Positions 1,336-5,475 of a DNA stretch of 6,049 bases are shown here, in pieces. How positions within the stretch are numbered: the stretch's first letter is position 1; each line of letters starts with the position of its first letter. A program made the translations under genes and the position numbers. Under the pieces are notes generated by a model that saw only the letters and a list, made by a program, of their open reading frames with translations, was not told where the DNA came from and searched no databases. Source of the stretch: a bacterium (GTDB lineage: Bacteria; CSSED10-310; JAJRTK01); the NCBI GenBank assembly GCA_024278345.1, contig JAJRTK010000045.1:1-6049 (forward strand), in the 5' to 3' direction.

Positions 1336-4300
1336 ATGAATTCGGCACCGCGAGCTTCGACCAAAAAAACGTTGGGACCCTACGTTCTGCTCCGCTCCTT
1401 GGGAGAGGGAGGCATGGGAGTCGTCTATCATGGGCGACATCGGGAGACGGGACTCGAAGTCGCCATCAAATCCCTGAGGGTTCCCAGGAGAAACCTGTTG
1501 GAAGGCTTGCGCAGAGAAGTCCACGCCCTCTCTCGACTCCAGCACCCCGGGATTGTTCGCATCCTTGACGAGGGGCTCGAGGAAGGGATTCCCTGGTACG
1601 CCATGGAACTTTTGGAGGGAAGGACCTTGGACCTATGCCGTACGGGGCTCATGGCGGGTTTTTTCCTCTCCACCAGCACGGACTTGGGAGAGGATGGCGA
1701 CGAGACGGGTTTCTGGACAGCCTCTTTGGCAGAGAATCTAGCTGACACCATGCTTGCGGAAAAACCGGAGACGCCAGTTCTGAGCCATCCCGCTCCCGCC
1801 ACGCCCGATTTTTCGTCAGACACGATTCTTGCTCCACAAGGTCCAGGATCTGAAACTTTAGGTGCCGCTCGGTTTTCGGCCTTGGAAGATCCGATGTCGC
1901 TTCGTGCCCCGTTGGGGACTGGAACTGGAACCGGGGATCCGCTCTCGGTACCCGCCTTGGGGAGATCTCTGGAGCATTCCGCCACCGAACTCAGTCTCCG
2001 CCCGGTCCTCCGCCTCGTAAGGAAGCTTTGTGATGCCCTCGCCTATCTCCACGGAGAAGGCATCGTCCATCGCGATCTGAAGCCGGCCAACATTCTGGTT
2101 CGGTCCAACGGGTCCCCGATAATCGTGGACTTCGGCATTGCGCACAGCAGCGGCGGCAGCCCTCGCGCACGCCTCGAAGTGGGCGGGCTCACCAGCGGGA
2201 CCCTTCACTACATGTCGCCCGAGCAACTTCGAGCCGAAACCGTGGATGCGAGAGCGGATCTCTACGCCCTGGGCTGCATTCTCTTCCAACTGGTCACCGG
2301 AACGGTTCCGTTTCGGGGTGCCACGTTTACGGAGATTGCTCACGGCCATCTGCGGGAGAGTCCGCCGCCGCCCAGGAGCTTTTCTCCGGCCCTTCCCCCG
2401 CGGTTGAATCGGCTGATTCTGGACCTTCTTGCCAAGGTTCCTCGCAAGCGGCCGGGCCACGCGGGAGTGGTAGCGGCAGCTTTGGACGAGATCCTGGGGG
2501 AATCGCCACGAAGTCCCCGCCCCGTGGGAAAAACTTACCTCTATCAGTCGCCGATGGTGGGCCGTGAGAAGTTAGTGGAGGCCGTATCCCGGAACCTCTT
2601 CGACACGGGGAGAGAGTCGGGGCCGAAGGTTCTTTCGCTGCTCTTTGGGCCTACCGGCGTGGGCAAAACTCGGATTCTTACGGGGCTTGCGCGTCGTGGG
2701 CTGGGGTCTGGGTACTGGGTCATTGCGGGATCGGCCCATGATGAAGTCGAATCCGGAGTTGCTGTTGGGCGGGGTGGGGGCACGCTCCACTCCTTCCGCG
2801 GTCTACTCCAATCTCTTGCCGACCATTGCCGCCAGGCGGGTTCTGAAGTGACCCGCAAGCTCCTGAGTTCCAGGGGGAGGCTATTGGCCCGATACGAACC
2901 GTCTCTCCAGGATCTTCCCGGAGTCAACTTTTCCGCCGCCGAGCCGGAGCTCTCGCTCAGAGCCGCGAAAGTTCGGCTCTTTTCCTATCTGTTGGAATCC
3001 TTGGCGGCGCTGGCGAGGGTGAAGCCGATTCTGCTTCTTTTGGATGATCTCCAGGAGACGGACCAGTTGTCCCTGGAGTTTCTCAGATTTCTCTGTAGGT
3101 CGGCAAGACTCTCGTCTCTTCCCATTTCCCTATGCGGCGCGTTTCGGAAGGAGGAAGCTCCCCCCGCCCTGCAAGAGCTTCTTGGCTTCGAGGCGGTCCT
3201 CTCCCATGCCGTGGAACCTCTCGGCGCCGCCTCCATCGCCCAAATGGTCCAGGAGACCCTCGCCCTGGATAGGCCGCCCCGCGTGTTTTGCGAGTTCCTG
3301 ATGCGCCACTGCGAGGGGAACCCGTTTTTCGTCGCCGAGTATCTTCGGACCGCCGTCGCTCAGGGCATCTTGTTCCGAGACGCCTATGGACGCTGGCAAG
3401 TGGAGAGAGAGAAGGAGGGGCCAGCCACGGTGGCCGCTTACGAAGCTCTCCCCCTGCCTCTCTCCATTCGCGAGCTCATGGAAGGGCGTCTCCGCAGTCT
3501 CTCTCCGCGGGCAAGATCCCTAGCCGAGGCAGCCTCCGTTCTGGGACCGGACTTTCAGGTTTCTCTTCTGTCGCATCTCAAAGGGGCGGCCCCGGAAGAT
3601 CTATGGGATTCTTTGGGAGAATTGACTCTAAAGCAGATTGTGGAGGCATCGGGTTCCGGCGGGTTCCGGTTCCTTCACGCGAAGCTCGCGGAAACCTGTT
3701 ACGCTGGTCTTTCGGAGTCCGAACGTCGATCCCTCCACGAAAGAGCCGCCAGCCGCCTTGGGGAGCACCCGGCAGAGGAAGACTGGGCGGAAGTCGCCCG
3801 CCACTGGTACATGGCGGGCGTTTCGGAACGGGCGATTCCCGCGTATCTAGCGGCCGCCAGGTTTGCCACGGTGCGGTACGAGATTCGCGAAGCGGAACGT
3901 TTCTATACCGCGGCCTTGGACCTCATGAAAGGGCTTTCGGAACGGCGCATTTTGGCTCTGATGGCCCTGGGCGAAAAAGTTCTCCTTCCCGACGGGCGGC
4001 TCCGGGAAGCGGCGCAGCTCTTCCAAACGGCGTTGAGTGAAGCCCGTGACCTCGGGAAAGATGCTCTGGAATGCGGGTATCCACCTAAGCCGGGACGCGC
4101 AACAAAACCAAAAAAAAGACGCGCAGCGTACAAAAACGTGGGTCCAGGGAGCGCGCTCCCTGGTGGGTGCAGGGCGAAGCCCTGCCAGGGGACGGGGGAT
4201 GGAATCCCCGGACCACCTTCGGGTAACGCACGGCGTGACCCGCCGAGCGATAGCGAGGCGTTGCCCGGACGCTTGCGATTCCACAGTCCCGGGAATGTCC

Positions 4301-5475: not shown

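Follow-up and report, generated by a model that had tools for sequence, protein, structure and literature searches.

Insertion within a kinase-TPR gene

The window, meaning the whole 6049-bp stretch of DNA analyzed here, is contig C512 of a 6.06-Mb assembly in 550 contigs that is 88% complete and evidently a fragmented metagenome-assembled genome (MAG) of a GC-rich, uncultured bacterium. It carries a pantoate-beta-alanine ligase gene and a longer gene whose product combines a protein kinase domain (Pfam Pkinase, E = 3e-42), an AAA_16 ATPase domain (2e-16) and TPR repeats (TPR_12, 6e-30). The open reading frame (ORF) of this kinase gene has 1379 codons from the ATG at 1336, or 1385 if the TTG at 1318 is the start. 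A 244-bp element with inverted ends lies within its TPR-coding part. The features of the window are as follows.

1-177, no strand assigned: partial copy of a second MITE-like family, unrelated to the kinase element and truncated where the contig begins (right end GGTACCATGACCGAGGCC at 160-177); separate from the kinase finding
194-1024: pantoate-beta-alanine ligase gene
1336-5475, + strand: protein kinase - AAA_16 ATPase - TPR repeat gene (Pfam)
3676-5472, + strand: modeled TPR solenoid segment (AlphaFold2)
4067-4074, no strand assigned: left copy of the target-site duplication, TGGAATGC, the same as 4319-4326 (sequence)
4075-4318, + strand: 244-bp MITE (BLAST matches in its own genome), read in the kinase frame as GYPPKPGRATKPKKRRAAYKNVGPGSALPGGCRAKPCQGTGDGIPGPPSGNARRDPPSDSEALPGRLRFHSPGNVPPCVDT
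4075-4096, + strand: left terminal inverted repeat, GGGTATCCACCTAAGCCGGGAC (inverted-repeat match and family end pattern)
4144-4163, no strand assigned: perfect internal hairpin, CCAGGGAGCG/CGCTCCCTGG; more hairpins occupy the body until about 4270
4297-4318, - strand: right terminal inverted repeat, GTCCCGCCTTGCGTGGATACCC (inverted-repeat match)
4319-4326, no strand assigned: right copy of the target-site duplication, TGGAATGC (sequence)
about 5487-5727, + strand: second, older copy of the same family, 11 bp past the kinase stop codon (BLAST and terminal repeats)

The sequence-only reading of this DNA had described an 8-bp direct repeat, inverted ends of ~22 bp (19/22 matching) and a 244-bp body, which together with one duplication would make 84 stop-free codons within a 1379-codon gene. 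Each of these statements holds base by base. The terminal inverted repeats are 22 nt long and 86% complementary, the element ends begin GGGTATCCACGCAAGGCGGGAC, and the flanking duplication is perfect. The first base of the element falls exactly at a codon boundary, and the element plus one duplication (244 + 8 = 252 bp, about residues 914-997) is free of stops in that phase, so that the kinase gene reads through it. No further stop or frameshift occurs across the 1379 codons, and Pfam finds no transposase in the host ORF. The peptide read from the insert has 16 prolines, 13 glycines and a net charge of +9, and a tryptic peptide, NVGPGSALPGGCR, lies entirely within it.

The hairpin-rich character of the element body, also noted earlier from the sequence, is far beyond chance (folding z = -3.5 for the plus strand and -3.8 for the minus strand versus dinucleotide shuffles). 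As RNA or as a single strand, the element folds back on itself: the stem of paired terminal repeats closes the structure at its base, and internal hairpins lie within. The kinase copy has a GC content of 64% and is open in four of its six frames, where dinucleotide shuffles would lead one to expect 1.1 (P = 0.006).

Two further irregularities are present in the window. The kinase domain contains a long Ser/Thr/Pro-rich insertion between the N-lobe and the catalytic loop (1639-1985, about residues 102-216) that is not similar to the MITE, and the end of the contig (5973-6049) consists of short tandem repeats of the CCCACCtCAA / CCCAtCAA type.

Empty sites in homologous kinases

The 84 residues are missing from all 16 of the homologous kinase-TPR proteins compared. 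Most of these come from the same genome, and the rest are from a single Myxococcales bacterium or from the phylum's other families, which makes this a comparison with paralogs and more distant homologs. The homologs align to the kinase up to residue about 908 and resume from about 1000. When the insert is excised in silico, ...DALEC is followed directly by KLQYHLAYV, and the alignments run through the junction, in agreement with the earlier suggestion that excision restores a continuous TPR. For one homolog (L160), two matches of 38 and 94 bits merge into one 146-bit alignment, and another (L034) now aligns in one stretch of 481 residues at 139 bits. The same 84 residues were also looked for in distant homologs, where they would have contradicted the insertion, and none were seen. 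From these alignments we conclude that the element is inserted into a pre-existing kinase gene. The kinase-AAA-TPR protein has 83 matches in its own genome and belongs to a large paralogous family.

The insert had been placed between two TPR units, where the duplicated Leu-Glu-Cys would rebuild the start of a helix. The second part of this proposal stands, and the first needs qualification: in the multiple alignment the insertion site falls within a TPR, in helix A at its first turn, and not in a long linker. After the insert, that turn is rebuilt by the duplicated Leu-Glu-Cys. In an AlphaFold2 model run on the alignment of kinase-TPR homologs, the insert has pLDDT values below 50 and the TPR helices on either side are mostly above 90. 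The model thus predicts a disordered insert, as had been supposed, between neighboring TPR helices whose fold is intact.

A mobile repeat family

The kinase element has 63 BLAST matches in its own genome, several of them full-length at 81-98% identity. The copies at C183:10948-11191 and on contig C67 are both 98% identical to it. A search for the terminal-repeat pattern that tolerated up to three mismatches gave 528 matches versus four for a reversed control, which corresponds to ends for at least about 260 copies, and many of the copies match the end pattern at 21-22 of 22 positions. Contigs often end within a copy.

Copies were defined by pairing facing terminal repeats in 1.5 of the 6.06 Mb (about a quarter of the genome, partly chosen for repeat presence). 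In this survey 42 copies have 8- or 9-bp duplications that match at 7/8 or more positions (exactly, at 8/8, in 26 of the 42), and these duplications share no target consensus. Most full-length copies carry such duplications. Lengths fall mostly within 170-355 bp, with 170-300 bp typical, and the family termini read GGG...CCC. The older copy downstream of the kinase gene (about 5487-5727) has no recognizable duplication. Terminal inverted repeats, a duplication of constant length, short size, the lack of a transposase and high copy number together identify the element as a mobile repeat, a MITE, and the mobility proposed from the single locus is borne out by hundreds of copies in this genome. 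No member of the family turned up in 30 other genomes, seven of them from the same phylum, or in plasmid or phage records, and the terminal repeat was not found in the viral contigs of a viral collection.

Some long copies contain a module of about 260 bp that is 80-86% alike among them (L158:495-752, L165:825-1085, L243:87-334). Its recurrence suggests that the element body is assembled from exchangeable modules.

In-frame copies in other genes

Copies flanked by coding sequence on both sides were found with a hexamer coding score that was trained on long ORFs and applied in any frame. At least five genes, including the kinase, have open in-frame copies with duplications; the four besides the kinase answer the earlier suggestion that other genes might carry the segment in frame. 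A DsbD_2 membrane protein on contig C183 reads its copy in the same frame as the kinase does, and without the insert its Pfam profile match lengthens from 2-183 to 2-198 of 199 positions. C26 encodes a membrane protein that has TPRs at its C terminus and contains an in-frame copy, a segment that is absent from a neighboring paralog. The Omp85-like barrel protein on C379, 930 residues long, also has one, and a homolog search for its empty site gave no useful matches. In a methyltransferase (C205) the insert sits between two Cys-x-x-Cys pairs; the start codon of this gene is less certain because the coding score upstream of the insert is weak.

An exosortase-family protein (C373, L327:347-1657) reads in frame through two tandem copies, which amounts to about 170 extra residues. 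No target duplication was recognized for these copies, and the gene is for that reason left out of the in-frame count. Three candidates with ORFs of doubtful coding status were set aside (C250, L160:15085-15367; C507, L264:2035-2245; C134, L157), as was one on C124 (L156), where the copy precedes a signal-peptide start and is therefore upstream of the gene. Two genes are truncated by copies. On C87 a stop is met within the element, and the nickel-insertion protein LarC on C77 loses its last eight codons and gains a new short tail instead (copy at L155:2808-3162, duplication TCGTCCCG).

Open in-frame fusion is observed in five of seven genes versus a random expectation of 22% (p about 0.008), where the expectation is the share of phase-and-orientation contexts over all 42 copies and the seven genes are a small sample, classified by hand within about a quarter of the genome. 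Because of the hand classification and small sample, the excess is only suggestive of selection. In this genome a mobile element seems to be adding disordered segments to proteins, much as is known for a few elements of other bacteria. Scaling up from the 1.5 Mb surveyed, perhaps 15-25 proteins could contain translated disordered inserts that are kept because they are in frame; that the stop-poor MITE is such a recurrent source is a reading to which we give slightly less than an even chance.

Alternative explanations

The sequence evidence makes it very probable that a non-autonomous MITE transposed into the kinase-AAA-TPR gene and duplicated 8 bp, and that the gene reads through the element with a predicted gain of 84 residues. 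The same locus could in principle arise as an assembly chimera, with two kinase paralogs joined at an abundant repeat and no real gene containing the element. The MAG is fragmented into its 550 contigs, many of them end inside the element, and kinase paralogs are numerous, all of which would favor such a join. It would not, however, yield identical 8-bp sequences on both sides, and the duplication here is perfect; furthermore, the excised TPR is continuous and aligns end to end with homologs, and four further genes show the same pattern. We reject this very improbable explanation on the strength of the exact duplication and the continuous empty-site alignment. Still less credible is removal of the insert after transcription, by RNA excision or by ribosome bypass between the TGGAATGC copies, which would leave a protein of normal length. 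In its favor, the RNA fold closes at the stem of the terminal repeats, with the same 8-mer on each side. Against it, no intron family matches the element, and the insert has an open frame and a length that is a multiple of three, neither of which bypass would need. Ribosome bypass of this kind is not known for MITEs. A self-splicing intron was discarded as a candidate, since there is no Rfam match at the gathering score and the target duplication argues for transposition.

A real insertion into a kinase that is now decaying deserves more weight, although we consider it unlikely. The insert would impair the protein, and the open frame would merely reflect its recent date. The element is indeed young, as its 98% identity to the C183 and C67 copies indicates, copies truncate two other genes (C87 and C77), and Rickettsia inserts are regarded in PMC2229807 as neutral or slightly harmful. 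Yet the 1379 codons of the kinase gene are free of further stops and frameshifts, the flanking TPR helices are predicted to be intact, and open fusions are commoner than random insertion would produce. Transposition into a gene that continues to be read through remains our preferred explanation.

Proposed mechanism and search for a transposase

If MITE transposition is correct, a transposase acting in trans would recognize the GGGTATCCAC ends and cut the two strands with a stagger of 8 or 9 bp. Copies would insert at many sites, and selection would purge most of those that break genes. The survivors would be intergenic copies or in-frame, stop-free copies at places where a disordered loop is tolerated. 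The kinase would thereby gain 84 residues rich in proline, glycine and basic residues, which may loop out in disordered form where a TPR helix makes its first turn, with the Leu-Glu-Cys duplicate restoring the turn.

An autonomous partner with the same ends was not found among the IS1595, IS256, DDE_Tnp_1, ISL3 and IS240 types searched in this 88%-complete genome. IS1595 (two copies), an ISAs1-like element (one fragment at the start of C373) and ISL3 (C5 and C395) are present with different ends where these are readable: IS1595 copies begin GGCTCTATATGCG and ISL3 ends read GGCTCTTCGCC. The IS256 and IS240 types are absent from the genome. Long autonomous elements were also sought in the 1.5 Mb as pairs of terminal repeats that face each other, and this gave chance pairs only. 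The source transposase may have been lost, may be unassembled or may be of another family than those searched.

Relation to known elements

Rickettsia palindromic elements RPE-1 to -3 (Ogata et al. 2000, via PMC10969869 and PMC2229807) are the closest parallel drawn here. Like them, this element is small and palindromic, occurs many times per genome and lies in frame in unrelated genes where the insert is apparently tolerated, and their trait of stop-free in-frame insertion in several unrelated genes is found in this family. The Rickettsia elements are about 100-150 bp long, whereas this element is mostly 170-300 bp, with a body rich in GC and terminal repeats that exceed theirs in length, and target duplications are uncertain for them (PMC2229807, Table 1) but clear here at 8 or 9 bp. 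The two are apparently unrelated, and the length and ends of this element differ from the described range. A Rickettsia guanylate kinase that contains a palindromic element is both translated and enzymatically active, and its substrate affinity is altered (PMC10969869, PMC2229807, PMC3767692).

In-frame ORF fusions, of which the Rickettsia elements are the most striking case, have also been described for ERIC, Correia and other MITEs (PMC2229807, PMC10969869). The Correia/NEMIS and ERIC/IRU elements resemble this family in having terminal inverted repeats, duplications and no coding capacity of their own, and in being mainly intergenic with some in-frame fusions. They usually end in TA and are AT-rich, whereas this family has GGG...CCC ends and 8- or 9-bp duplications, suggesting that a different type of transposase is involved. 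MITEs derived from the IS1595, IS256 and ISL3 families have the same duplication length of 8 or 9 bp, but no copy of those families in the genome has the ends of this element. In-frame MITE fusion itself is thus already known; the novelty lies in the element family and in how many well-marked cases a single genome contains. A MITE with exact duplications, a clear mark of transposition, can extend genes by dozens of residues while leaving them open. Because one known sequence is inserted many times in this genome, in different proteins, at different positions and in different frames, direct tests become feasible of how well proteins tolerate random disordered inserts and of how mobile DNA gives rise to new protein segments.

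A second MITE-like family and nested elements

The second, unrelated MITE-like family, represented in the window by the fragment at 1-177, is about 200 bp long with ends GGCCTTGGTCATNGTACC and 8-bp duplications (four exact cases). Copies occur at the following places.

L165:335-535
L230:8231-8431
L264:13165-13413
L298:6478-6676

On contig C5, a copy of this family lies within an ISL3 transposase gene and breaks it, with the duplication TTCAAGCG. The ISL3-type element there (L165:1-1240), which has the right end GAAGAGCC, directly abuts the right part of a kinase-type MITE copy, and mobile elements are therefore nested in one another at this site.
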